Assembly: GCF_001536285.1 (NCBI RefSeq)
Contig: NZ_FAOZ01000004.1
Location: 1 to 64,000 of the forward strand
DNA length: 64,000 bases
Direction of reading: 5' to 3'
Source: Parafrankia irregularis
Lineage (GTDB): Bacteria > Actinomycetota > Actinomycetes > Frankiales > Frankiaceae
How positions within the stretch are numbered: position 1 is the stretch's first letter; every line of letters starts with the position of its first letter. This document shows positions 7,255-24,567 of the stretch, piece after piece. Under the pieces are notes generated by a model that saw only the letters and a list, made by a program, of their open reading frames with translations, did no database searches and had not been told where the DNA came from. The translations under genes were made by a program, and so were the position numbers.

Positions 7255-10200
7255 TCAAAGTAGCGGAAGGATCGCGACGCCGACGGTTCCGCGGGCCGTG
7301 CGCTTCGCCCGGTACATCGCGCTGTCGGCCGTTCTCAGGAGGTCACTGGGATCAGTGTCGCTGGAGCGGGTGAGGGCGACTCCGACAGTTGCGCTCAGGC
7401 CGATGAGATCGTCGCCGTGGTGCACCGGGTCGGCCAGGACCTGTCGGAGGCGACGTGCCACGGCAGTGGCCTGCTCCTGGTCGGCCTCACCGAGAATCAC
7501 GACGAACTCGTCACCGCCGAGCCGGTAGGCCGTGTCGCCGGGCCGGCAGGCGTGGACGAGCCGGCGGGCGACGGTGCTCAGGACGACATCTCCGGCCTCG
7601 TGGCCGAAAGTGTCGTTGATCTGTTTGAAGTGGTCCAGATCGACGAACACGATCGCGGTGGTGCCCGCGCCGGGCCGGAGTGCGTCCAGCAGTGCGGTCC
7701 GGTTGGGCAGGCTCGTCAGCGGGTCGTAACGCGCCTGGCGCAGCAGCTGGTCCTGCAGGCTTCTGCGTGCGGTCACGTCGTGAATGGTCGTCAGCCTTCC
7801 GCCGATATCCGGGTGGGCGAACTGGTCGGAAGCACGGAAGTCGAACCAGCGGTACACCCCGTCAGCCCCCCGGAGCCGGAGATCGCGCACCGTCGTGACG
7901 CCGGTGGGCGGGCTGCGGCCGGTGTCGTCCGCCGGGGCGAGCGCACGTCGAAGCTGGTCGATGTCGTCGGGATGCACCATGCCCCACTGCTGCCCCCGGA
8001 GGGCATCGGCGTCGTAGCCGAGCAGACGGGTCACGGCGGAGCTGACGAACGTGACGTTGGCCTGGCGGTCGGTGACGAGCACGATGTCGTGGACGTTGTG
8101 AAGCAGAGCGGACAGCGTTTCGTCCTCCCGGCGTTCCGCCTGGGCGAGCAGCCGGGTCGCGAGCGCCAGCCCGAAGACGGTCGCCGCCACGGAACAGATG
8201 ATCAGCGCATACTGCCACCCCTGCTCGGGGCGCAGTCCGGACAACGCGGCCGAGGTCGGAAGTTCCAGCATGACGTACCCCCCGTCGGCCAGGGCGGGAT
8301 CACGGACGGCGAACGCGATGGAATCCTCCGCGGTTGTCGCCGGCCCCGGCAGCCGCACCGCGCCGGAAGCAGGCAGTGTGGCCAGGACCGCGGGGTCGGC
8401 GAGGCGGCGGCCGATGAGCCTGCGGTCCCAGGAGTACCTGGCCACGCCGTTGACGTCCAGTTCGGACAGTCCGCCCGTCGAGCCGAGGCCGACCGACCCC
8501 ACCGCCTCGTACCCCTGTTGCTGCGGTGAGATGTCGGCCCGAATGCCGATCGAGACCACCGCGATCGACGCACCGTTCTTCAGGACGGGGAGCAGCGAGT
8601 AGTTCCAGTAGTTCCCGTCGACCGACTGCACCGGCAGGTTGCCTGCCTGGCCACCCAGCGCGGTGGCGAACGCCGGGTCCCCTGCCCGTGCCGGAACGGG
8701 TGCGTCGGCGGGCGCCGCATCGATGACCTGGCCGTCTCTGCTCAGAAGCGCCATCGACGTGCCGTCGGACAGCACGGCGAACTGATTCAGCACGATCTTG
8801 TTGGCGGCGGACGGGGTGAGCGTCCACGGCACCGCGGAGATGTCGGCGATCAGATTCCTTGTGGCGCCCGACGCGTCGTTGTAGCGCGCGGAGCCCTCCG
8901 CCACATCGGCGAGTTCGTGGAGCCTTCCCCGGGTGGCCTCGCGCTCGGCCGCTCGGTCCAGGCTGAGGGCTGTTCCCGCCATCACGACAAGCAGGATCGC
9001 CGCGAGGACCAACGGCCCCCAGGTCTGCAGCCGCCTGCCGCGCCCGTGGCCGGCCTTCGCGGCCGGCTGGTGCATGTCCGGCCGCCGCCGCGCAGCGCCG
9101 GCAGGGCGAATCTCCCTCCCGGCGGCCTCGCCGCTGGGGATCTTCCCGGCGGCGCCCTCCTCCACGGCGGCGCCCTCCTCGCCGGGGGTGACCGCTCGGG
9201 GAGCTGGCTCCGCCTCGCGGAGCGCGACCGGCTCCGGCTCAGGTCGACCGGGACGACCGGGACGACCGGGGGCGCACTCCTCAATCACCCAACGACTGCC
9301 GCCGTCGCGTTTGGCCCGGTACATGGCGTGGTCAGCCTGCCGCACCAGCTGGTCGGGGCGGACGCCGCCGCGGGGCAGACCGTCCGGAACGACCGCGCCG
9401 ACGCCGACACTTGCACTGACGCGCGGTCGCCGACCATCAACTGTCATCGGACCCGCGAGAAGGTCGACGACGCGGGCGGCCACGCGGATGGCCTCGGCCC
9501 GGGAGACGCCCTGGAGGAGGACGACGAACTCGTCCCCGCTGAGACGTCCGACGACGTCCTCACGCGGCGCGTTGCCGGCACGGTCACTTCCGGTACGCAC
9601 CGCGTCGACGAGCCGGCGGGCGACAATCCGCAGAACCTCGTCGCCCACCTGGTGGCCGTGGGTGTCATTGACCGCTTTGAACCCGTCGAGGTCGACGAAC
9701 AGCAGGAAGACGGAGGCGTTGGTGGCGACTGTCGCCGCCAGAGCGCTGTCGACGGCGGCCATCACCGCGGTCCGGTTGGCCACACCGGTCAGGCCGTCGG
9801 TATGCGCCTGGTCGGTGAGACGGTCCTGGAGATCCTTGCGTGTCCCGATCTCATGGCAGGTGACCAGGATTCCGCCCACGGCGGGATCGTCGCGCAGATC
9901 GGCGGCCTCGACGTCGAAGCAGAGCCATCCGGTGGGGCCGATCGCGGGGGAACCACGCGTGTCGCTGAGAAACCTGACATCAAGCTCCGGCGGCAACCGC
10001 GGGTTGTCGATCAGGGCCCGGACACGTGGCACGTCCTCGGGGTGGACGAGGTCCGTCAACGGCCGGCCGAGATCGGCCGGCGGCGCGCGTCCGAGCAGGT
10101 GGCGGCCGGCCGCGCCGACGAAGGTCAGCCGGTGACTGTCGGCCTCGGCGACCAGGACGAGATCGAGCGTGCCGGACAGCAGCGCGTCGGTGCGTGCCCG

Positions 10201-11163
10201 GCCACGTCGCGCCGCGCGGGTCCAGACCGCCCCGAAGAGCGCCAGCGACGAGAGGCAGGCGACATACACCGTGGTGAGGGTGATACCGCGCTGTCGCTGC
10301 TGTTCGCGCAGGTCCGCATAGAGGTCGGCCTCGCGGCGTTCCAGCAGGAGGTAGTAGCCCGTGCTGGGGACGCGGTGCGCGAAGTGGACGACACGGTCGT
10401 CGCCGTCGCCGGTCGTCCACTCGCTGGTGATGCCAGTCGCGACCTCGGCCAGGTCGGCCGGGGCCAGGACCTGCGTGCCGATCAGACCCGGATCCCAGGC
10501 GTTCACCACGACTCCGGCCCGATCGGTCTTGTACGTGCCCTTGTCGGCGACGGCCTGGGCGAAGGCCTGGAACTGGGAGTTGTCGTTCGCTGCCACCAGA
10601 ACCCCCCAGGGCCGCGCCCCACCGACCGGCGCTGTCGTGGCGACCAGCTTCCGGCCGGCCAGGTCGAACAGGTCCGACGCGGCCGCTTTGCCTGCCAGCG
10701 CCGAGTCCCAGGCAACCCCCAGTTCGGTGACTGTCGGCGACGGCTGCGCCGGGTCGAGGCTGGCGGTGACCGTCCCGTCCGGTGCGTACAGCGCGACGGC
10801 CTGGTTGGGGACGAACGTCGGCGAGTTCGTGAACAGACGCAGGAGCTCCCTGTTGAGCGCCGGGTCGTCACGCGCGAACGGGGTGACAGCCACCTGGTCC
10901 GCGAGCAGCTGCGGATTCTCGAGCAGGTTGGACATGTTCGCGAACTGGCCGACGAGGCGCTCCCGGTCGGCCAGTCGCTCGGCCTCCTCGGCCGCCAGTC
11001 GGGCCCGCCCCAGCATGACCAGGGCGATGCCCTGCCCGGCGAGAAGGCAGAGCACGCCCAGGAGCAGCAGCCTGACACCGCGGCCCCGAACGCGCAGGCC
11101 CAGTGCGCGGACCCTGCCGGCCGACAGCTCGCGGCCGGTCATACGGGCCCGCGTCGCCTGCAC
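7255..11163 (-). CDS. membrane diguanylate cyclase with two tandem sensor-PAS-GGDEF modules
   Basis: The 1302-residue protein is built twice over. Module 1 has a transmembrane helix near residues 30-53, an extracytoplasmic sensor, a second helix near 300, a PAS domain and a GGDEF domain with SGDEF near residue 543. Module 2 repeats the plan: helix near 735, extracytoplasmic sensor, helix near 1000, PAS and a GGDEF domain with GGDEF near residue 1216. Module 2 keeps the RxxD inhibitory site (RPGD, five residues before GGDEF); module 1 does not. Both should convert GTP to cyclic di-GMP if active. No EAL domain is present. The GTG start follows GGAG at five bases. An internal ATG just before the second module could allow a shorter product. 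Confidence 0.88.
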   Translation of the reverse strand: MQATRARMTGRELSAGRVRALGLRVRGRGVRLLLLGVLCLLAGQGIALVMLGRARLAAEEAERLADRERLVGQFANMSNLLENPQLLADQVAVTPFARDDPALNRELLRLFTNSPTFVPNQAVALYAPDGTVTASLDPAQPSPTVTELGVAWDSALAGKAAASDLFDLAGRKLVATTAPVGGARPWGVLVAANDNSQFQAFAQAVADKGTYKTDRAGVVVNAWDPGLIGTQVLAPADLAEVATGITSEWTTGDGDDRVVHFAHRVPSTGYYLLLERREADLYADLREQQRQRGITLTTVYVACLSSLALFGAVWTRAARRGRARTDALLSGTLDLVLVAEADSHRLTFVGAAGRHLLGRAPPADLGRPLTDLVHPEDVPRVRALIDNPRLPPELDVRFLSDTRGSPAIGPTGWLCFDVEAADLRDDPAVGGILVTCHEIGTRKDLQDRLTDQAHTDGLTGVANRTAVMAAVDSALAATVATNASVFLLFVDLDGFKAVNDTHGHQVGDEVLRIVARRLVDAVRTGSDRAGNAPREDVVGRLSGDEFVVLLQGVSRAEAIRVAARVVDLLAGPMTVDGRRPRVSASVGVGAVVPDGLPRGGVRPDQLVRQADHAMYRAKRDGGSRWVIEECAPGRPGRPGRPEPEPVALREAEPAPRAVTPGEEGAAVEEGAAGKIPSGEAAGREIRPAGAARRRPDMHQPAAKAGHGRGRRLQTWGPLVLAAILLVVMAGTALSLDRAAEREATRGRLHELADVAEGSARYNDASGATRNLIADISAVPWTLTPSAANKIVLNQFAVLSDGTSMALLSRDGQVIDAAPADAPVPARAGDPAFATALGGQAGNLPVQSVDGNYWNYSLLPVLKNGASIAVVSIGIRADISPQQQGYEAVGSVGLGSTGGLSELDVNGVARYSWDRRLIGRRLADPAVLATLPASGAVRLPGPATTAEDSIAFAVRDPALADGGYVMLELPTSAALSGLRPEQGWQYALIICSVAATVFGLALATRLLAQAERREDETLSALLHNVHDIVLVTDRQANVTFVSSAVTRLLGYDADALRGQQWGMVHPDDIDQLRRALAPADDTGRSPPTGVTTVRDLRLRGADGVYRWFDFRASDQFAHPDIGGRLTTIHDVTARRSLQDQLLRQARYDPLTSLPNRTALLDALRPGAGTTAIVFVDLDHFKQINDTFGHEAGDVVLSTVARRLVHACRPGDTAYRLGGDEFVVILGEADQEQATAVARRLRQVLADPVHHGDDLIGLSATVGVALTRSSDTDPSDLLRTADSAMYRAKRTARGTVGVAILPLL

Positions 11164-14874: not shown

Positions 14875-16017
14875 TCAGGCGGTGGCGCCGCGGCGCAGCG
14901 AGCGGTACAGCAGCTGCGCGTCGCCGAGGCGGCGGCGCAGCGTTCGCTCCAGGCCGGCGATGGGGTAGAGGTTCTGCGGGGCGCGGGCGTCCTTGAACTC
15001 CTGGGACGCGAACCGGGGCAGCGTGGCCTGGCTCAGGTCGGCGAGCTCGACGGCGTGGTCGACGGACGTGCCGGAGCCGCACTCGACCCGCACGATGCCC
15101 GCCCAGGGAGCGCCGGGGCGGCAGGGCAGGCGCAGGTACCAGCTTGGGCGGTCCCAGCTGCGTCCCACCGTGAACACCGGGGTGCGTTCCCCCGGCCCCA
15201 GCCGCCCGACGACGGCCAGCGGCGGGCCTTCCAGGTAGGACGAGTGATGGGTCTTGACGAAGCCCAGCGTGCGGGGGAGCGCGCCGGCATGCAGGGGGCC
15301 GTCGACGACCAGCAGCGCGTCCGTGAAAGCTCCGTCGGCCCCGTGGGCTTCGGTGGCCGGGAACGGGTGGTGGGCCCGCAGGTCGCGGTGGGCGCCCAGG
15401 GCGGTGGTCATCTCCAGTCCGCGCAGTTCCCGCTGGAGGGCGAGGTTCAGGTCGTCCGGGCCGGCGCCGTCCGTCTGATGCAGGTGGTAGGTGCCCTCGG
15501 CGGTCCTGACGTCACCGGCCTGGCGAGCCGACGTGAAGAGGCCGCGGCGCACATGCGCGGCCAGCAGGTGGGCACCGGCGCCGCAGCAGCAGACGACACC
15601 GCCCGCGTAGGAGGCGCAGATGGCCGGTGCGGCGATGTTGGCCGCGGCGACGCCGTCCGCGGGGGCGCCGTCCGTGGGGGCGCCGTCCGCGGGGGTGCCG
15701 GCCGGCTCGGTCTCGTGGATCCAGGCCCGGGCCTCGACGCGGCGCACACCGTCGACGAACAGCACCGCGGACGGCGGCGTCACAGCGAGACCACGGGCCG
15801 CCGGAGTGGGGACCGGTCGCCAGGCGGGCACCGGCACCTCCACGCCCGCGTTGGCCGGCGTCTTCGACTCCTTCAGGCCGTCGTCGGCGACGGAGGTGCC
15901 GTAGCTCGGGTCCCAGGCGTCGACACTGAACCGCATCCCGCCCACGCCGGCCCGCGGGGCCGGCACCGCGGACGCGGTCGTGGCGGCGGTGGTCCGCCGA
16001 TGGCTGTCGTCGCTCAC
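14875..16017 (-). CDS. nurA: NurA-like 5'-3' nuclease domain protein
   Basis: The 380-residue protein has NurA hallmarks: the metal-binding Asp in AVLFVDGVRRVEAR near residue 88, a second acidic motif LLVVDGPL near residue 240, and a C-terminal block with VDHAVELADLSQ and FKDARAPQNLYPIAGLE. NurA nucleases act with the HerA translocase to degrade the 5' strand at double-strand breaks. The GTG start overlaps the sbcC stop as GTGA. Residues about 105-120 are an insertion of 15-bp tandem repeats (PADGAPTDGAPADG, near 15650-15700). It is the last gene of the herA-mre11-rad50-nurA operon, which strongly supports the call; sequence alone gives moderate support. Confidence 0.75.
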   Translation of the reverse strand: MSDDSHRRTTAATTASAVPAPRAGVGGMRFSVDAWDPSYGTSVADDGLKESKTPANAGVEVPVPAWRPVPTPAARGLAVTPPSAVLFVDGVRRVEARAWIHETEPAGTPADGAPTDGAPADGVAAANIAAPAICASYAGGVVCCCGAGAHLLAAHVRRGLFTSARQAGDVRTAEGTYHLHQTDGAGPDDLNLALQRELRGLEMTTALGAHRDLRAHHPFPATEAHGADGAFTDALLVVDGPLHAGALPRTLGFVKTHHSSYLEGPPLAVVGRLGPGERTPVFTVGRSWDRPSWYLRLPCRPGAPWAGIVRVECGSGTSVDHAVELADLSQATLPRFASQEFKDARAPQNLYPIAGLERTLRRRLGDAQLLYRSLRRGATA

Positions 16018-19000
16018 GTGGACTCCCTCCGGATGGTGGAGGTGCGCTGGTCACGGGTGACGGCGAAGCGTACCGGCACCCGTTCGGCGAGAGCGCCGAC
16101 GTGGGTGACGATGCCGACCATCCGGCCGCGGCCGGCGCTGGTCCCGCCGCTGGCGAGGTTCTCCAGCGCGGTCGCGACGACGTCCAGGGTGGAGTCGTCG
16201 AGGGTGCCGAAGCCCTCGTCGAGGAAGATCGAGTCGAGCTGCGCGGCGCCGGCCGCCGCCATCGTCGTCAGCTGCGCCGACAGGGCCAGGGCGAGCGCGA
16301 GGCTCGCCTGGAACGTCTCCCCGCCCGACAGGGTCCGTACCAGGCGGCGCGAGTCGGCGTCGGCGTGGTCGACGACGAGGAACTCGCCCTGTTCGTGGGT
16401 CAGCTCGAACTGGCCGCCGGACAGCTCGGCGAGGGTGACCGACGCGTCGGAGACCAACGTGTCCAGCGCCGCGGCGACCAGCCACCGCTGGAACCGGTTC
16501 GAGCGCAGCAGAAGATCGAGCTGGTGTGCGACCTGCTCCTCCTCCCGCGCGCGGGCCAGGTCGGCACTCAGCGCGGCGGCCTTGGCACGTCGCTCGGTGA
16601 CCCGACGAAGCTCGGCTTTCGCCTGTTCCAACGCGGACGACGTCGCCTGGGCCGCGGCATCTCCTACGGACCGCCCGCCTGGCCTGGGCCGTGGCACGGC
16701 GTCGGAGACGATCCCGCCGCGTGGCTGCCGCTGTGGCTGCGGCGGCGGGTTGTCCTGCCTCGGTAGTGGGATGCCGTGCGCGACGAGGACCTCGGTCAGC
16801 GCTCGCGTCACCGCCTGCCCGGCCTGCTCGGCCCGGCTGACCTGTGCGCGCAGGCCGGGCAGCTCGCGCTCGCGCGCCGACGACTCGGCTGCCGTCCAGC
16901 TGGTGAGCGTCGTCCAGCCGGCGAGCAGATCCTGGCTGTCGACCGTGGGCGCGCCGAGCGCGACGACGGTGTCCCTGGCGCGGGCGAGCACGGTCTGGGC
17001 GTCGCCGCGGGCCTGCTGCGCGGCGCGCAGGCCGGCCTCGGCGGCATCGGCATCCGCCCGGGTGGCGCGCAGGCCCTGGTCCGCTTCCGTGACCGCCCGG
17101 TCGAGCTGGTCGAGCTCGGCGAGTGCCGCCGTCACCTCGTCGGCGGGAGGGGCACCGGCGAGCGCGGCACGCAGCTCGGCGACCAGGCGTTCGGTGGATG
17201 CCAGGCCGACCGCCGCGTCACGCTCGGCACCAACCGCCGCGAGCTGGTCGGCTTCCGCCTGCCCGGCGGCCGCATCGGCGTGGTCGTATGCACGCCGGGC
17301 GTCGTCGCGGGCGGCGCGGGCCGCGCTCTCCTCGACGGTGGCGGCGGTCAGCCGCGCTTCCCGCCCGGTTGCCTGCTCCTCGGCCCAGGCGACCAGCCAC
17401 GCCCAGCTTCCGGCCAGGTCCGATCCGCCTCCGCCTCCGCCTCCGCCATCGCCGTTGCCACCGGTGCCGGCACCGGGACCGGCACCGGGCCCGGTATCCG
17501 CGGGCTCGTCGGTGAGGACCGGAGCACCGAGCACGACCAGCGGGTCGCGGGCGGCTGTCAGTGCGGCGCGAGCCTGTGTCTCCGCCGCGGCGAGCTGTGC
17601 CACCACCTGACCGGCCTGGTCCGCCACGCGGCGCGCCGCGGCAAGCTCCTGCCCGGTCCGGGCTACCTCCTGCTCGCGGTGGGCGATCTCGGCGAGTCCC
17701 GCGTCGACGCCGGCGGAGTCCGGGGCGTCGGCGAGGGCAGCCTGCAGGTCGTTGACGCGTTCGCCCAGCTGGTGTGCCCGCAGGCCGGCGGAGAGCTCGG
17801 TGCGGTCGGCCTCGGTCGCGCGCTTGTTCGCGAGGTCGAGGGCCGAGGTGGCGTCATCCAGCGCCGCCTGCGCCATCACGAGGGCCGCGGGCGCCCCCGG
17901 CCGGCCGTCGCCCGTGGGCTCGGGGCCGGCCGGCTGCCGGTTGCCGGCCGTGGGCAGGGTGACGACGGTCTGCTCGCACACCGGGCACGGTTCGCCCGCG
18001 ACGAGGTGCGGGCGCAGCGCACCCGCGAGATCAGCGGTTCGCGCGTGTTCCAGTGCCCGCGCGGCCTCGCCGCGGAGCTGTCGAGCGGTCTCGACGGCGG
18101 CGGCCGCGGTGTCCCGGGCGGCGCGGGCCGCGGTGTGGACGGATTCGGCTTCGGCGCGGGCGACGAGCTGGCGGGTGAGATCGTCGTGGTCGGCGCGGGC
18201 GCGTTGCAGCATGGTGCGGTCGGGGGTGGCGGCGAGCGCGGTGCGGGCGTCGTCGTCGGCCCGTTCGGCGTCGTGGCGGCGCTGGGCGGCGCGGTCGGCG
18301 TCATGCCGGGCGGCACGCAGCTTCCCGGCCAGCTCGACCACGCCCTCCGGGGTGCGCACGGCGGCGAGCAGCTCATGTTCGGCTCGCAGCCGGGCGACCT
18401 CGTCAGCCAGTGCCTGGGAGGTCCGCTCCGCGGCGTCCCGCGCCGAGGCGGCGGCCTCACGGGCGCTTCGGGCGCCGGCAACGGCCTGGGCCACCCGGGT
18501 CAGCTCGTCCCGCGCGGCGACGTGCGTGGCCCGGGCCCGGGGGAGATCGGTGAGGGCGGTCGCCAGGCCGTCGTGGTGGCGGCGGGCCTGCTCCAGGGGA
18601 GCGCGGTCGGGCGCGGCGGCGACCGCGGCGCGGGCGGCGGTGTCGGCCCGCTCGGCCTCCTGCCGGGCCTTGGCCGCGTCGTCGGCCGCCGCGGTGGCCC
18701 GCGCCAGCCGGGCCGTCAGCTCGACGACGTCCCCCGGAGCCCGGATCGCCGCGAGCAGGTCGCGCTCACGTTCGACCCGGCCCAGCTCGGCGGTGGCCTC
18801 GGCGGCGGCGCTCGCGTGGGTGGCGAGCTCGGCTCGGGCCCGGTCCACCTCGCCGGTGAGGGCAGTCAGCGCGTCCACCCGGCTGCCGGCGGCGAGCTCG
18901 GCGTCCTCGGTGGCGTCCTGGTAGCCGGCGAGCTGCTCGTCGAGCACCGCGGCCCGCTGCCGGCGGTCACCGGCGCGGCCGGCGGCCGCCGTCCGGACCT

Positions 19001-19550
19001 CGTCGTAGACGCCGAGGCCGAGCAGCCTGGTCAGGATCCGCTGCCGGTCGGCCGGTCTGGCGTGCAGGAACTCGGCGAAGTCGCCCTGCGGGAGGACCAC
19101 ACAGGAGCAGAAGTGCTCGAAGCCGAGCCCGAGCAGTGCCTCCACGGCCCCGGTCACCTCGGAGTCGGCCGCGACGACCTCGGTCGCCTCGCCGGCCGCG
19201 CCGAGCCCGCCCGGGTCGACGAGCTTCTCCAGCCGCGCGCCGCGGACGGTGACGGAGCCGCTGGCGGACCTGCGCAGCTCTCGGGCCACCACATACCGGG
19301 CACCGGCGGCGTCGAAGACCAGCCGGACGGTGCCGCGCACCGCCGTCGGGGCGAGGGCCAGCGACACCAGTCGGCGGTCGTTCCACCGTGGCACCGAGCC
19401 GTACAGCGCGAACGTCATCGCGTCGATGACCGTGGACTTCCCCGACCCGGTCGGCCCGACCAGCACGAAGTAGTCGACCTCGGTGAAATCCACCGCCGCC
19501 GGGTCGCGGAACGAACCGAACCCGGCGATCTCCAGCAGCACGGGACGCAT
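16014..19550 (-). CDS. sbcC: SbcC/Rad50-type SMC ATPase
   Basis: The 1178-residue protein has the Walker A GPTGSGKST near residue 35, two long Ala/Glu/Arg coiled coils, and a CPVC zinc hook near residue 522. The C-terminal signature TLSGGETFQASLALALAL and Walker B LDSIFLDEGFGTLDD are also present. It is the ATPase of the SbcCD/Mre11-Rad50 complex that tethers and opens DNA ends. Odd features are a Gly-rich insertion near residue 695 and a Pro/Arg/Gly insertion near residue 950, both breaking the distal coiled coil. Its start overlaps the sbcD stop by one base (TGATG), and its stop overlaps nurA by four. Confidence 0.93.
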   Translation of the reverse strand: MRPVLLEIAGFGSFRDPAAVDFTEVDYFVLVGPTGSGKSTVIDAMTFALYGSVPRWNDRRLVSLALAPTAVRGTVRLVFDAAGARYVVARELRRSASGSVTVRGARLEKLVDPGGLGAAGEATEVVAADSEVTGAVEALLGLGFEHFCSCVVLPQGDFAEFLHARPADRQRILTRLLGLGVYDEVRTAAAGRAGDRRQRAAVLDEQLAGYQDATEDAELAAGSRVDALTALTGEVDRARAELATHASAAAEATAELGRVERERDLLAAIRAPGDVVELTARLARATAAADDAAKARQEAERADTAARAAVAAAPDRAPLEQARRHHDGLATALTDLPRARATHVAARDELTRVAQAVAGARSAREAAASARDAAERTSQALADEVARLRAEHELLAAVRTPEGVVELAGKLRAARHDADRAAQRRHDAERADDDARTALAATPDRTMLQRARADHDDLTRQLVARAEAESVHTAARAARDTAAAAVETARQLRGEAARALEHARTADLAGALRPHLVAGEPCPVCEQTVVTLPTAGNRQPAGPEPTGDGRPGAPAALVMAQAALDDATSALDLANKRATEADRTELSAGLRAHQLGERVNDLQAALADAPDSAGVDAGLAEIAHREQEVARTGQELAAARRVADQAGQVVAQLAAAETQARAALTAARDPLVVLGAPVLTDEPADTGPGAGPGAGTGGNGDGGGGGGGGSDLAGSWAWLVAWAEEQATGREARLTAATVEESAARAARDDARRAYDHADAAAGQAEADQLAAVGAERDAAVGLASTERLVAELRAALAGAPPADEVTAALAELDQLDRAVTEADQGLRATRADADAAEAGLRAAQQARGDAQTVLARARDTVVALGAPTVDSQDLLAGWTTLTSWTAAESSARERELPGLRAQVSRAEQAGQAVTRALTEVLVAHGIPLPRQDNPPPQPQRQPRGGIVSDAVPRPRPGGRSVGDAAAQATSSALEQAKAELRRVTERRAKAAALSADLARAREEEQVAHQLDLLLRSNRFQRWLVAAALDTLVSDASVTLAELSGGQFELTHEQGEFLVVDHADADSRRLVRTLSGGETFQASLALALALSAQLTTMAAAGAAQLDSIFLDEGFGTLDDSTLDVVATALENLASGGTSAGRGRMVGIVTHVGALAERVPVRFAVTRDQRTSTIRREST

Positions 19551-20719
19551 CAGCCCTGCCCTCCGACGATCTCGTCGTGCAGGGCGGCGAACAGCGCCTC
19601 GACCCGCTCGTCCGCGACACCCTGGGTGCTGAGGTACTCACCGAACAGCTCGGCCGGCCCGCGCTGCCCGCCGTTGGACGGGCGGCTGGGCCGGTCCCCG
19701 TCCACCGGCCGCGCGAACTCCGGGTCGATGCGGACCTCGAGCGCGTTCGGCAGCAGCTCCTGCACCTGGTCACGCAGCCCGGCCCGGGCCGGCTCGCGCA
19801 CCAGCACCCGCAGCAGCGCGTCGCCGTACTCGGCGGCCTGGTCGCCGAGCTCCGCGACCGTGCCGCGCACCGTTCGCAGCCGGCGCCCGGCCGCGATCGG
19901 GACGTCGATCCCGCGGGCGGGGATCCCCGGTGCCGCCTCGACGACCCGCACCACGGGGGTGTTCTCCTCCTCGCCGAAGTCGAGGGCGAGCGGTGACCCG
20001 CAGTACTCGACGGGGCAGGGCGCCGGCAGCGTCTGCCGGCGGTGCAGGTGCCCGAGGGCCACATAGTGCGCGTCGGCGGGGAACGCGGTCGCCGGCACGA
20101 AGTAGTCGAAGATCGACTGCGCGAGCCGTTCGCCGCCACCGAACCTCCCGCCGACCACGGTCAGGTGCGCGAGCACCACGTTGACGGCGTCGTCGGCGAA
20201 GCCCGCGGCGAGGCTGGCCAGCAGGTCCCGCACCGCCTGGTCGTAGCGGCCCGTCTGCTCGGCCGGGGTCTGCGTCACCAGCTCGACGGCCCGGACGGCG
20301 TATCGCTGGGACAGGAACGGCAGCACGGCCACCCGCACCGGCTCGCCGCTGCCGCGGGCCACAAAGGAGATCACCCCGCCCTTGTCCGCCCGGCGCGGGG
20401 TGCCGACGAAGGTGATCCCCGCCGCCGCCATCAGTGGGCGGTACGCCTCGAAGGACCCGGCATGGTCGTGGTTACCCGCGATGACGATCACCTCGGCGCC
20501 GGTGCCACGCAGCCCGAGCAGCGCCTGGATCGCGAGTTTCTGTGCCTCGGCCGACGGCGCGGCCGACTCGTAGACGTCACCGGCGACCAGCACGGCGTCG
20601 ACCTCGTGGGCGCGGGCGATCCCGACGATCTCGCGCAGGACCGCCTCATGGTCGTCGAGCCGGCTGCGGCCCTTGAGCGACTTCCCGATATGCCAGTCGG
20701 ATGTGTGCAGGAACCTCAT
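19550..20719 (-). CDS. sbcD: SbcD/Mre11 exonuclease
   Basis: The 389-residue metallophosphoesterase nuclease shows the phosphodiesterase motifs in order: SDWHIG at residues 7-12, VAGDVYES near 45, IAGNHDHAGS near 80, VLAHLTV near 180, and LGHLHRRQ near 215. All metal ligands appear intact. With SbcC it forms the SbcCD (Mre11-Rad50) complex. Length is normal for the family. It lies 36 bases after the HerA gene and overlaps sbcC by one base, so it is coexpressed with both. Confidence 0.93.
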   Translation of the reverse strand: MRFLHTSDWHIGKSLKGRSRLDDHEAVLREIVGIARAHEVDAVLVAGDVYESAAPSAEAQKLAIQALLGLRGTGAEVIVIAGNHDHAGSFEAYRPLMAAAGITFVGTPRRADKGGVISFVARGSGEPVRVAVLPFLSQRYAVRAVELVTQTPAEQTGRYDQAVRDLLASLAAGFADDAVNVVLAHLTVVGGRFGGGERLAQSIFDYFVPATAFPADAHYVALGHLHRRQTLPAPCPVEYCGSPLALDFGEEENTPVVRVVEAAPGIPARGIDVPIAAGRRLRTVRGTVAELGDQAAEYGDALLRVLVREPARAGLRDQVQELLPNALEVRIDPEFARPVDGDRPSRPSNGGQRGPAELFGEYLSTQGVADERVEALFAALHDEIVGGQG

Positions 20720-20755
20720 GGCGGCGGTCCTTCTCGGCGGGCGTGACCGGACGGG

Positions 20756-22672
20756 TCAGAACGGCAGGGGGTCGTCGGGGTCGGGCAGCAGGTTCCACGG
20801 GTCCGGACGGGCCGGCGTGCCCGGCCCCGCGGAGCCGCCCGGTTCCGCGGAACCATTCGCACCCGCGGCGCCGTGCGTCCCTCCTGGGCCGCTCGTTGTG
20901 GCTGGCGCTGCCGGCCCGGTGCCGTCGGTCTCCGACGGCCGGGTCGCCCAGGCGGGGAACGGGAACGAGACCGCGAGCGGGACGGGGATCTCGGGCTGCG
21001 AGACGAACATCGTGCCCGGCTTGGCCAGGGTGGCCCGGGAACGCTGCGCCGGCGGCAGGAAACCGTACTCGGGCCGGCCGGCCTCGGCCGTGTCCAGCCG
21101 GCCGACGATCTTGATGGAGCTGTTGGCGATGATGCGCCGCTCCACCTCGCTCGCGGTCTGCTGCGCGCCGATCAGGATGATGCCCAGCGACCGGCCGCGC
21201 TCGGCGATGTCGAGCAGGACGTCCTTGATCGGGCTGGCGCCCTCGCGTGGGGCGTACTTGTTCAGCTCGTCGAGCATGGTGAACAGCAGCCCGCCCGGGC
21301 CGGCCTCCTCCTTGCGCCGGGTCTCGTCGGCGAGAACCACTCCGACCACGAACCGTTGCGCCCTCTCCGGCAGGTTGTGCAGGTCCACGACCGTGACCTG
21401 CTGGCCGGTGGTGCTCACCCGGCGGCCTGGGCTGTCGGGCAGATCGGCCCTGATCAGCCCGCGCAGCGCCCGCAGCGACGAGCGCAGCCGGCGCACGAAC
21501 GCGTTGACCGTGCCGGTGCCCGTCGCCGGCCCCGCCCACACCGCCCGGGTGGCGTCGTCGTTGACCCGGTCGATGACGAAGTCGACGAGGTCGTCGTACG
21601 TCCGCAGGGTCCGGCCCTCGACCGTGATCGCACCGTCCGCGCCGAAGGGCCGCGCGTCGAGCCGCAGCCGGTTCGTCACCTGGTGCACGACGATCGTGTA
21701 CTGGTTGCGGTCGTCCTCCGCGTCGGCGAACACGTACGGCAGCAGCTCGTCGGCGCAGAACTCGCGCAGCGTCCACCAGAACGCCTGCACACCGGACGTC
21801 CGGGCGGTGACATGCGGCCGGCCACCGGTGTCACCGGGCAGCGGTGGGGCGAAGAAACCGGCGGACGCGAACGGCTCGGCCGGCAGCCCCAGCTGTGCGT
21901 AGACGGCACGGACGTTCTCGTCGATGCGGCTGTTGGGGTGGTCCAGGAACAGCAGGTCCTCGCCCTTCACCGAGAAGATCAGCGCCTTGGCGTTCACCGC
22001 CTCCCGGCCGAGCACGCCGCTGCGGAACACGGAGTAGAGCAGGAACAGCGCGAAGCTGGTCTTCGTCGCGACCCCGGAAATGCCGCTGATCGACACGTGC
22101 GCGCCGCGGGTGCCGTTGAGGAACTCCAGGTTGACGTAGATCGGGGTGCCGTCCCGGCCGAGCCCGACCGGGATCCTGCGGTCCATCTGGTCGAAGTACA
22201 GCGCCGTCGCCCGCTCGTCACCGGTCGCCCGCCGGACCAGCTCACCGGGCCGCGGCGGCACGAAGATCTCCGGCTCGACCCGGGTGGTGGTGACCTCGGC
22301 GATCTCCTGCACCTGCGCGGGCAGCACCCCGTCGGCGATGAGGAAGACGTCCGAGTCGAACGACGCGCCCTCGTGTCGCGCCTCCACCTGGGTGACCACC
22401 CCGGCCGTCATCACCGGCCCGACGCCCGGCACCTGGCGCACCGTGACGACCACATCGTCGAGCTGCAGGTAGTTCCCCTCGGCCAGCGCGACGTGGAACA
22501 GCAGCGGTGTGGCCTGCTCGGTTCCCATCACCCGCCCGACAACCCCGCTGACCTGCTGCCCGGGGCCGGAGACCGCCCCGTTCGGAACGCCGGGTGTGTC
22601 CGGTACGGCCCCGCCCGGCCAGGCGCCGTTCGGTGCCGCGCCGCCAGGCCCACCGGCCTCCGTCACCGTCAC
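20756..22672 (-). CDS. herA: HerA-like hexameric DNA translocase ATPase
   Basis: The 638-residue protein has an N-terminal HAS-barrel-like region (VSGVVGRVMG to VVTQVEARHEG), a Walker A of the HerA type (GISGVATKTSFAL, near residue 205), a Walker B LLFTMLDELNKYAP, and the C-terminal RRIIANSSIKIVGRLD segment with the arginine-finger region. HerA/FtsK-superfamily ATPases pump DNA into the NurA nuclease. The start is set at GTG 22672, ten bases after GGGAGG; GTG at 22693 is an alternative. The C-terminus is a Gly/Ala/Pro tail holding a palindromic element (20841-20854). It is first in the four-gene operon with mre11, rad50 and nurA homologues. Confidence 0.85.
   Translation of the reverse strand: MTVTEAGGPGGAAPNGAWPGGAVPDTPGVPNGAVSGPGQQVSGVVGRVMGTEQATPLLFHVALAEGNYLQLDDVVVTVRQVPGVGPVMTAGVVTQVEARHEGASFDSDVFLIADGVLPAQVQEIAEVTTTRVEPEIFVPPRPGELVRRATGDERATALYFDQMDRRIPVGLGRDGTPIYVNLEFLNGTRGAHVSISGISGVATKTSFALFLLYSVFRSGVLGREAVNAKALIFSVKGEDLLFLDHPNSRIDENVRAVYAQLGLPAEPFASAGFFAPPLPGDTGGRPHVTARTSGVQAFWWTLREFCADELLPYVFADAEDDRNQYTIVVHQVTNRLRLDARPFGADGAITVEGRTLRTYDDLVDFVIDRVNDDATRAVWAGPATGTGTVNAFVRRLRSSLRALRGLIRADLPDSPGRRVSTTGQQVTVVDLHNLPERAQRFVVGVVLADETRRKEEAGPGGLLFTMLDELNKYAPREGASPIKDVLLDIAERGRSLGIILIGAQQTASEVERRIIANSSIKIVGRLDTAEAGRPEYGFLPPAQRSRATLAKPGTMFVSQPEIPVPLAVSFPFPAWATRPSETDGTGPAAPATTSGPGGTHGAAGANGSAEPGGSAGPGTPARPDPWNLLPDPDDPLPF
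20841..20854. repeat. in-frame palindromic element, copy 2 (in herA)
   Basis: GGTTCCGCGGAACC, flanked by CCCCGCGGAGCC 15 bases away, encodes SAEPGG in the low-complexity C-terminus of the HerA-like ATPase. The same pair of elements and a near-identical peptide occur in the serine dehydratase insertion at 6498-6544. Confidence 0.5.
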
Positions 22673-22853
22673 CGAAACGCCACCTCCCCGCACCTACGAT
22701 CACCGTGGGCTGCCGGCAGCCGCCCCACCGGACCGATGGTGCTGCTGGCGGCGCACAGCGCCTACATTCGGTGGATCGTATGCCGCACCCGGCGAACCAG
22801 CCGGACCGCGGCGCCCGCGCCTCTCGGATCTTGCCGCTGCTACCGAGCAGGAC

Positions 22854-22891
22854 CTGAGGATGTTGGTTGTTCCGGCGACCGCAAGCCTCAG
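22854..22891. repeat. dispersed palindromic repeat, copy B
   Basis: CTGAGGATGTTGGTTG and CGACCGCAAGCCTCAG form an imperfect stem around TTCCGG. With flanks (22840-22896) it is about 85 percent identical by eye to the copy at 45803-45840, including the leading CCGAGCAG and the trailing ATCTT. It lies in the 470-bp divergent gap between herA and the DUF234-type ATPase gene. Confidence 0.6.
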
Positions 22892-22951
22892 ATCTTGTCC
22901 GGCGGCAGCGGCGGCAACAGTGGTAGATCGATGCGGCAGGTCGAGGAACGA

Positions 22952-22983
22952 AGGATTCTGGTCGTCCGGACGACCGCGATCCT
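22952..22983. repeat. dispersed palindromic repeat, partial copy C
   Basis: AGGATTCTGGTCG and CGACCGCGATCCT pair at 11 of 13 positions around TCCGGA, with a perfect 16-bp palindromic centre GGTCGTCCGGACGACC. It is related to copies B and A but less similar outside the stem. It sits about 60 bp from copy B. Confidence 0.55.
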
Positions 22984-23090
22984 CCGCTCCTGCCTGCGGG
23001 CAATGCCAGTCGCGGCGGCGCCCGGCCGGAGCCGCGACTCGAGGAGTCGTCGCCGCGCGGCCACCGTGGCCCTCGCCAACGCCGGCGTTA

Positions 23091-23135
23091 CTAACATCGG
23101 TGTCGGTAACATCAGTGTCGGTAACATCGATGTTA
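23091..23135 (+). promoter_or_regulatory. three tandem 15-bp repeats directly before the ATPase gene
   Basis: Units CTAACATCGGTGTCG, GTAACATCAGTGTCG and GTAACATCGATGTTA follow head to tail. The last holds the 14-bp palindrome TAACATCGATGTTA. The array is distinctly AT-richer than its surroundings and ends ten bases before the GTG start, leaving no room for a normal ribosome site. It probably contains the promoter of a leaderless transcript and operator sites. Confidence 0.65.
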
Positions 23136-23145
23136 GTCTCGTCGT

Positions 23146-24567
23146 GTGCGCGAGGACTTCGTGGGGCGTGGCGAGGAGCTGGCGCGGCTGGGTGCCCACC
23201 TCGAGGCGGTGCGCGGTGGCCGCGGCCGGCTGGTCAGCGTGCGAGGGCGCCGGCAGGCCGGCAAGTCCAGGCTGATCGGTGAGTTCGTCCGCCGGTCCGG
23301 TCTTCCGCAGCTGTTCGCGACCGGTTCGCGTCAGGCCACCCTCCAGCGCGATCTCGACGGGTTCGTCGAGGACGCACGTCTGGACTGCACGCTGCCCGGT
23401 GCCGACGGGCTGACGGCGGGCGGGTTCACCAGCTGGGAGCAGGCGCTGCGCGCCGTTCACGCGGCCCTCCCCGCGGACGGGCCGTCCATCGTCGTGGTCG
23501 ACGAGTTTCCATGGCTGCTGGAACGTGACCCGGGAATCGACGGCACACTGCAGAAGCTGTGGGACAGGCTTTTCGAGGCCCGCCCCGTCCTGTTCGTCGT
23601 CATCGGCAGCGACCTGGCCGTGATGGAGATGCTCACCGGCCACGACCGGCCGCTGTTCGGGCGGGCGCGGGAAATGGTCGTGGAACCGTTCTCCGTCGGC
23701 GACACCGCCCGGATGCTCGAGCTCGACGGCGACCGCACCCGCGCCGCGGAGGCGTTCGACGCTCAGCTCATCACCGGCGGCTATCCCCGGCTGCTGCTGG
23801 AATGGCGACGACTCGGTGACCTCTCCGCCTTTCTCACCGAACAGCTTTCGGATGACAACTCCGAGCTCCTCGTCACCGGGCAGCGGATCCTCGACGCGGA
23901 GTTCCCCCGTGATCTGCAGGCGAGTGGCGTGCTGCGGGCCATCGGTGCCGGGGAGCGTGCCTTCTCCGCGATCGCGTCCCGGGCCGGCGTGGCGTCGACA
24001 CCACTCACCCGCTCGCTGGACCTGTTGGCCGGCAAGAAGGTGATCGCGGTCGACCGCCCGTTGGCGGCTCGGGCCGGGACGGCATCCCGCTACCGCGTTG
24101 CCGATCCCTACCTCCGGTTCTGGCTGCGTTTCCTGGAAAGCGCGGTGGTCGACATCCAGCGCGGCCGGCCGGACCTGGCGCAGGCCAGGGTGGCCGGCGG
24201 CTGGGCGGCCTACCGCGGCCGGGCCGTCGAGCCGCTGGTCCGCCAGGCACTCACCCGACTCGCCATCGATGATCCTGTGCTTGGCGCCGCCGACTCCGTG
24301 GGCGGCTGGTGGCCGCGCAGCCAGACTCCCGAGGTGGATCTGGTCGGTGTGCGGCCGCACGGAGCGGCGAACGAGGTGACCTTCGTCGGCTCGATCAAGT
24401 GGCGGGACAGCGAGCCGTTCGGCCAGGCCGACCTCGACCACCTGTTGCGGGACCGGGTCGGCGTTCCCGGTGGCGACACCGCGCCCCCGATCGCCGTCAC
24501 CCGGACGACCAGCCAGGTACCGGGCCTGCCGAGCTATGACCCGGCCCGCCTCCTGCGGGCCTGGTAG
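23146..24567 (+). CDS. ATP-binding protein of the archaeal-type ATPase/DUF234 family
   Basis: The 473-residue protein starts with FVGRGEELARL and a degenerate Walker A (GRRQAGKSRL, near residue 37). A Walker B IVVVDEFPWLLE follows near residue 120, then a sensor-like VIGSD. After a winged-helix-like middle (AIASRAGVASTPLTRSLDLL) comes a C-terminal region with DPYLRFWLRF and PEVDLVGV...IKWRDS, matching the DUF234 nuclease-like domain. These proteins are widespread in archaea and actinobacteria with unclear roles, possibly in DNA or conflict systems. GTG at 23146 is chosen because it precedes the conserved REDFVGR and follows the repeat array; no Shine-Dalgarno is present. Confidence 0.8.
   Translation: MREDFVGRGEELARLGAHLEAVRGGRGRLVSVRGRRQAGKSRLIGEFVRRSGLPQLFATGSRQATLQRDLDGFVEDARLDCTLPGADGLTAGGFTSWEQALRAVHAALPADGPSIVVVDEFPWLLERDPGIDGTLQKLWDRLFEARPVLFVVIGSDLAVMEMLTGHDRPLFGRAREMVVEPFSVGDTARMLELDGDRTRAAEAFDAQLITGGYPRLLLEWRRLGDLSAFLTEQLSDDNSELLVTGQRILDAEFPRDLQASGVLRAIGAGERAFSAIASRAGVASTPLTRSLDLLAGKKVIAVDRPLAARAGTASRYRVADPYLRFWLRFLESAVVDIQRGRPDLAQARVAGGWAAYRGRAVEPLVRQALTRLAIDDPVLGAADSVGGWWPRSQTPEVDLVGVRPHGAANEVTFVGSIKWRDSEPFGQADLDHLLRDRVGVPGGDTAPPIAVTRTTSQVPGLPSYDPARLLRAW

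Follow-up and report, generated by a model that had tools for sequence, protein, structure and literature searches.

A herA-sbcD-sbcC-nurA operon in Parafrankia irregularis, a probable module for the processing of double-strand DNA ends

The DNA we analyzed (hereafter, the window) is a stretch of 64,000 nucleotides from the 9.5-Mb genome of Parafrankia irregularis. Four open reading frames on its minus strand, the coordinates of which we checked, correspond to herA, sbcD, sbcC and nurA (Table 1). The genes are closely packed, with 36 bp between herA and sbcD, a 1 bp overlap between sbcD and sbcC, and a 4 bp overlap between sbcC and nurA. Translation of herA most likely begins at the GTG at position 22672, which has a ribosome binding site, GGAGGTGG, ~8 nt upstream and which we therefore prefer over the start of the longest ORF, at position 22693. 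An earlier annotation made without database searches (the sequence-only reading) had proposed these four identities, this spacing and this herA start, and had also suggested that the genes are translationally coupled and follow the order of the archaeal herA-mre11-rad50-nurA operon; our analysis agrees on each of these points, the genes being co-oriented and overlapping. Short tandem-like repeats (GATGTTACCGACAC...) lie between herA and the divergent gene upstream of it, and a search of this intergenic region for LexA- or PafBC-like damage boxes found none. The divergent gene encodes an AAA ATPase with a DUF234 domain and matches the candidate defense family PDC-S27 (E 7.5e-24). A gene for a protein of 1302 aa with PAS and GGDEF domains, a diguanylate cyclase, also lies near the operon.

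Table 1. Coordinates of the operon, of motifs within its products, and of neighboring and related loci
Feature	Sequence	Position	Strand	Description
herA	window	20756..22672	-	hexameric FtsK/HerA-family DNA translocase, bacterial (Deinococcus) type
sbcD	window	19550..20719	-	Mre11-type metallophosphoesterase; phosphoesterase motifs complete
sbcC	window	16014..19550	-	Rad50-type ATPase, coiled coil and zinc hook; PF13476, PF13558, TIGR00618
nurA	window	14875..16017	-	RNase H-like nuclease, predicted to resect 5' strands, bacterial type
HerA Walker A, GISGVATKT	window	22058..22084	-	K211/T212, aligned with drHerA K175/T176 (7f6d)
HerA Walker B, DELNKYAP	window	21248..21271	-	D475/E476, aligned with drHerA D487/E488 (7f6d)
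Rad50 zinc hook, CPVC	window	17976..17987	-	motif in SbcC
NurA D89 in VDGVR	window	15742..15756	-	catalytic Asp, equivalent to drNurA D53
NurA K255 in FVKTH	window	15247..15261	-	equivalent to drNurA K201
NurA R345 in ARAPQNL	window	14968..14988	-	equivalent to drNurA R309
herA upstream intergenic region	window	22694-23145		tandem-like repeats
Divergent AAA ATPase gene	window	23146-24567		upstream neighbor of herA
PAS-GGDEF protein gene	window	7255-11163		near the operon
Streptomyces linear plasmid locus	L218	962-9364		Wadjet-like set upstream of herA-sbcD-sbcC-nurA
Sphaerospermopsis kisseleviana plasmid locus	L219	7805-14805		complete nurA-herA-sbcD-sbcC
Module-type sbcD-sbcC of genome G212	L221; L222	2-343; 1-3423		split across contig ends
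YhaO/YhaN-like pair	L223	5435-10710		second SbcCD-like pair

The HerA protein is most closely related to that of Deinococcus radiodurans (drHerA; PDB 7f6d), which it matches over residues 45-599 (E 3e-147, 495 bits), with homology spanning the HAS-barrel and RecA-like domains. The unusual Walker A sequence is identical in the solved Deinococcus structure, and the drHerA residues with assigned roles in ATP hydrolysis and translocation (K175, T176, D220, D487, E488, R495 and R552; PMC9960219) are identical in the Parafrankia protein (K211, T212, D246, D475, E476, R483 and R540), with the translocation residue R483 immediately following the Walker B motif. The sequence-only reading had allowed that this ATPase might group with unrelated FtsK/VirB4-like proteins, an assignment ruled out by the match to Deinococcus HerA. 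Archaeal HerA (Thermococcus, 9x1l) was reached by profile only, at E 0.04.

The NurA assignment is supported by both profile searches and structure prediction. The single sequence matched Deinococcus NurA (7f6d) at E 2e-19, and a profile built from 22 members matched it at E 1e-56 and matched Thermotoga 1zup at E 1e-16. The AlphaFold (AF2) model (pLDDT 84, pTM 0.83) has the RNase H-like NurA fold and is closest to 1zup (Z 23.0) and 7f6d NurA (Z 22.2), with lower scores to archaeal NurA proteins (Z 10-14; 2ygk, Z 14.0) and to the TdpAB nuclease (PDB 8wfd; Z 13.6). D89, K255 and R345, the equivalents of drNurA residues whose roles have been described (PMC9960219), are invariant across all 22 aligned sequences, and residue 28 (MRFSVDAW) marks the start of the conserved core. 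The invariant residues, the profile match and the fold scores together rule out a chance ORF. Neither Pfam PF09376 nor NCBIfam models matched the window NurA, and PF09376 had no match in its genome; among the 22 homologues, PF09376 matched 10 at E < 1 (best 8e-6). Since fold and profile agree, we attribute this miss to a limit of the Pfam model. In one RefSeq record that we inspected, the NurA homologue is labeled “hypothetical protein”, and the module supplies a NurA family that lies below Pfam and NCBIfam cut-offs.

SbcD matched TIGR00619 (E 4.5e-54, 183.9 bits) above the cut-off of 77.65 and contains the motifs SDWH, GDVYE, GNHD and GHLH. SbcC matched TIGR00618 at E 3e-72, below that model’s cut-off of 478.5 bits, and has both ABC ATPase halves, with Walker A (GPTGSGKST), LSGGE and Walker B motifs and the CPVC hook, already recognized in the sequence-only reading, all intact. 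Both proteins scored far higher with bacterial models than with archaeal Mre11/Rad50 models and, by this comparison of sequences, are of bacterial type. The earlier description of the operon as “archaeal-type” therefore holds for its gene order but not for its proteins, with HerA and NurA nearest to those of Deinococcus and SbcC and SbcD bacterial. Compared with the operon of thermophilic archaea (Sulfolobus, Pyrococcus), the Parafrankia operon has the same gene order, component functions and NurA fold, but its HerA shows very weak homology to the archaeal protein, its SbcCD is bacterial, and its host is a soil bacterium with AdnAB.

Among known bacterial systems, the D. radiodurans HerA-NurA pair (7f6d; PMC9960219) is alike in that every catalytic, ATPase and translocation residue that we tested is kept, but the Parafrankia module adds sbcD and sbcC between herA and nurA. 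The same four components occur as a cluster in Oceanithermus profundus (nurA-hepA-sbcD-sbcC), a likeness that we draw from its description by Blesa et al. 2017, who reported sbcD-sbcC downstream of hepA in this organism and nurA preceding hepA in Thermus (PMC5448004); given this precedent, the Parafrankia operon belongs to a kind of bacterial four-gene set that was already known. The two clusters differ in order and lineage, with sbcD and sbcC downstream of hepA in the Thermales cluster and nurA last in Parafrankia (Actinomycetota). A structural study from 2023 described HerA-NurA as limited, among bacteria, to a small number, Deinococcus-Thermus being an example (PMC9960219). Spread through actinobacteria, the archaeal order in bacteria, and block transfer, all described below, appear to be undescribed in the literature that we found, although older work may mention the cluster.

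The sequence-only reading implied that this arrangement is rare, whereas we found it to be widespread. Among 198 genomes sampled across the phylum, a strong HerA match was present in about 45 in addition to the window’s own, a weaker HerA group (30-34% identity) was mostly confined to one other family, and the module was absent from 16 genomes of the class to which the window belongs. A scan of named genomes returned at least 80 loci, all from Actinomycetota by title, with all four genes in about 55-58 of those listed; among the listed loci, many incomplete sets were interrupted by contig ends. Carriers include Micromonospora and some mycobacteria. In total, 123 actinobacterial loci had at least three of the four genes and about 100 were complete, so the grouping is beyond chance. 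In the set of 99 complete loci plus the window, the order herA-sbcD-sbcC-nurA occurs in 76 and nurA-herA-sbcD-sbcC in 24, and we read the Oceanithermus cluster as having the latter order. The order switches once on the HerA tree and likewise once on the SbcD tree, and the module is old in Actinomycetota. Pairwise distances among the four genes are strongly correlated (rho 0.84-0.94, to which common host ancestry contributes), and a 4-bp overlap is the commonest arrangement at nurA junctions (51 of 73 sbcC-nurA junctions and 16 of 26 nurA-herA junctions).

Within the Frankiaceae the distribution is patchy. The operon HerA is present in four of six genomes of the window’s genus (its own included), in all eight genomes of genus g154 (in one case on a contig fragment), in one genome of g150, and in none of 13 genomes of g149; we infer g149 and g154 to be Frankia and Pseudofrankia, respectively. 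Parafrankia sp. EUN1f carries the operon with a HerA that is 98% identical, but the window operon is closer to those of g154 (HerA 81-82%, SbcD 81-83% identity, the fragmentary G231 left aside) than to those of other members of its own genus (HerA 77-78%, SbcD 70-71%). Monophyly of the Parafrankia operons was rejected by the AU test (p 5e-46), whereas in the tree of the control gene AdnA all six members of the genus group together with full support, following taxonomy. Flanking sequences tell the same story: around the operon, only the closest strain has flanks in common with the window, except for 3.2 kb (homologues of two secreted-protein genes) in one further genome, unlike the flanks of AdnAB, which are common to nearly the whole family. 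In Frankiaceae, the operon has been transferred between genera as a block. In Micromonosporaceae the neighborhood is syntenic and stable, and transfer is therefore not universal. The sequence-only reading left open whether the set was acquired or ancestral, and both apply, since it is old in Actinomycetota and has moved between genera in Frankiaceae.

Copies of the module also reside on plasmids. On a Streptomyces linear plasmid, a Wadjet-like set (DUF2397, TIGR02678, TIGR02680, TIGR02679) lies upstream of herA-sbcD-sbcC-nurA, separated from it by a gene for an ImmA/IrrE-family peptidase. In the cyanobacterium Sphaerospermopsis kisseleviana, the module lies in nurA-first order on a conjugative plasmid, with transposases nearby, and its NurA was confirmed by profile (222 bits). 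A phage origin was considered and rejected, as relatives in phage and viral collections reach only 25-36%. The uneven distribution and the occurrence on plasmids fit an accessory function better than a core one. The plasmid copies also bear on the idea that HerA-NurA acts in DNA transfer (conjugation or transjugation), a role proposed for TdtA and a NurA-like nuclease of Thermus, the genes for which are needed for DNA donation on ICETh1 (PMC7767461). We regard such a role as highly improbable here, even with a conjugative plasmid among the carriers, since TdtA is described as a membrane protein (PMC7767461) and the best match of the Parafrankia protein is the soluble D. radiodurans HerA, and since most loci are chromosomal and lie beside housekeeping genes, with no consistent transfer-gene neighbor.

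Alternatively, HerA-NurA and SbcCD could be two unrelated pairs with separate functions, in which case their linkage would mean little. HerA-NurA of Deinococcus and Thermus is found without SbcCD (PMC5448004), and genome G212 (genus g151) has a module-type sbcD-sbcC that lacks herA upstream and nurA directly downstream, with no HerA detected in the genome, possibly a natural loss of the HerA-NurA half. We nevertheless consider this explanation very unlikely, given that about 100 loci keep all four genes together with nurA at either end and that overlaps, correlated distances and block transfer all connect them. Nor does the module appear to have arisen by capture of a resident Frankia-type SbcCD by HerA-NurA, a scenario that we reject because the module SbcD forms a clade separate from the stand-alone SbcD of the Frankia-like (g149) genomes.

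We think it probable that the operon encodes a bacterial machine for the processing of double-strand DNA ends, composed of SbcCD (Mre11-Rad50) and HerA-NurA. This reading builds on the four protein identities, the intact catalytic residues, the tight coupling, and the co-inheritance and transfer of the genes as a block, all of which our analysis shows. By analogy with Deinococcus and archaea, from which the biochemistry and the cooperation of the two complexes are taken, SbcCD would tether and open blocked ends by means of the Rad50 hook and the endo- and exonuclease activities of Mre11, the HerA hexamer would then load and pump duplex DNA into a NurA dimer, and NurA would either resect the 5' strand, leaving a 3' tail for RecA, or degrade the duplex. 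End resection by the module in Parafrankia would follow from the same analogy. The in vivo role of HerA-NurA is disputed. Mutation of hepA (herA) renders Thermus sensitive to UV, and intermolecular recombination is reduced ~10-fold in D. radiodurans nurA and herA mutants (PMC5448004), but such mutants retain or gain damage resistance (PMC9960219), which counts against the end-processing reading, and a study of archaeal (Thermococcus) HerA-NurA argued against end resection and for antiviral degradation of double-stranded DNA (PMC12977600). Our literature search found no experiment on the module in any actinobacterium. The negative search for LexA- and PafBC-like boxes upstream of herA, the patchy distribution and the plasmid copies likewise count against the end-processing reading. 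The best reading of our data is a mobile Mre11-Rad50 and HerA-NurA module for end resection or double-stranded DNA degradation, with an antiviral role possible. Since it occurs widely in actinobacteria, this role can be tested in bacteria that are not extremophiles, both in carriers of the module and in those that lack it.

That the module acts mainly against phages and plasmids, with HerA-NurA and SbcCD destroying foreign linear DNA and repair being secondary, seems unlikely to us, although several observations point that way. The module moves horizontally and has plasmid copies, one of which adjoins a Wadjet-like set; HerA-nuclease pairs are known defense systems (PMC11291478), and the archaeal complex has been proposed to be antiviral (PMC12977600); TdpAB is a fold neighbor of NurA; and the divergent gene upstream of herA matches a candidate family (PDC-S27). 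TdpAB and other HerA-nuclease systems likewise pair a HerA-like translocase with a NurA-like nuclease, but the Parafrankia NurA is much closer to structures of bacterial resection NurA proteins and lies in no evident defense-gene neighborhood. As a unit, the module matches no PADLOC system, and the syntenic, stable neighborhood in Micromonosporaceae also speaks against a defense function. In a PADLOC scan of 141 non-redundant neighbors against 145 control genes (partly redundant, and drawn with a simple gene caller that yields some false ORFs), the neighbors gave scattered matches, with at most two members per family, and were mostly housekeeping genes; matches to E1-E2 (12 members) inflate the control because it repeats orthologues around AdnAB. 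The case for membership in a defense island is weak, the neighboring genes giving it no support when judged against this imperfect control.

The window’s genome also contains tandem AdnA/AdnB-like genes, each with UvrD and PDDEXK domains, in keeping with the earlier suggestion that the operon coexists with AdnAB. The operon is the genome’s only recognizable SbcCD. In members of the genus that lack the operon we found no other clear SbcD, and in g149 genomes the different, stand-alone SbcD clade takes its place. It is conceivable, though we would not favor it, that HerA-NurA and SbcCD are physically joined in a single, horizontally mobile bacterial machine of four proteins that is older in Actinomycetota than its patchy present distribution, that replaces or backs up resection by AdnAB/RecBCD or else degrades foreign DNA, and that shares its gene order with archaea through an ancient common operon rather than by chance. 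The sole other SbcD-like match in the window’s genome belongs to a YhaO/YhaN-like pair, the large subunit of which ends in an Lsr2 DNA-binding domain (PF23359).
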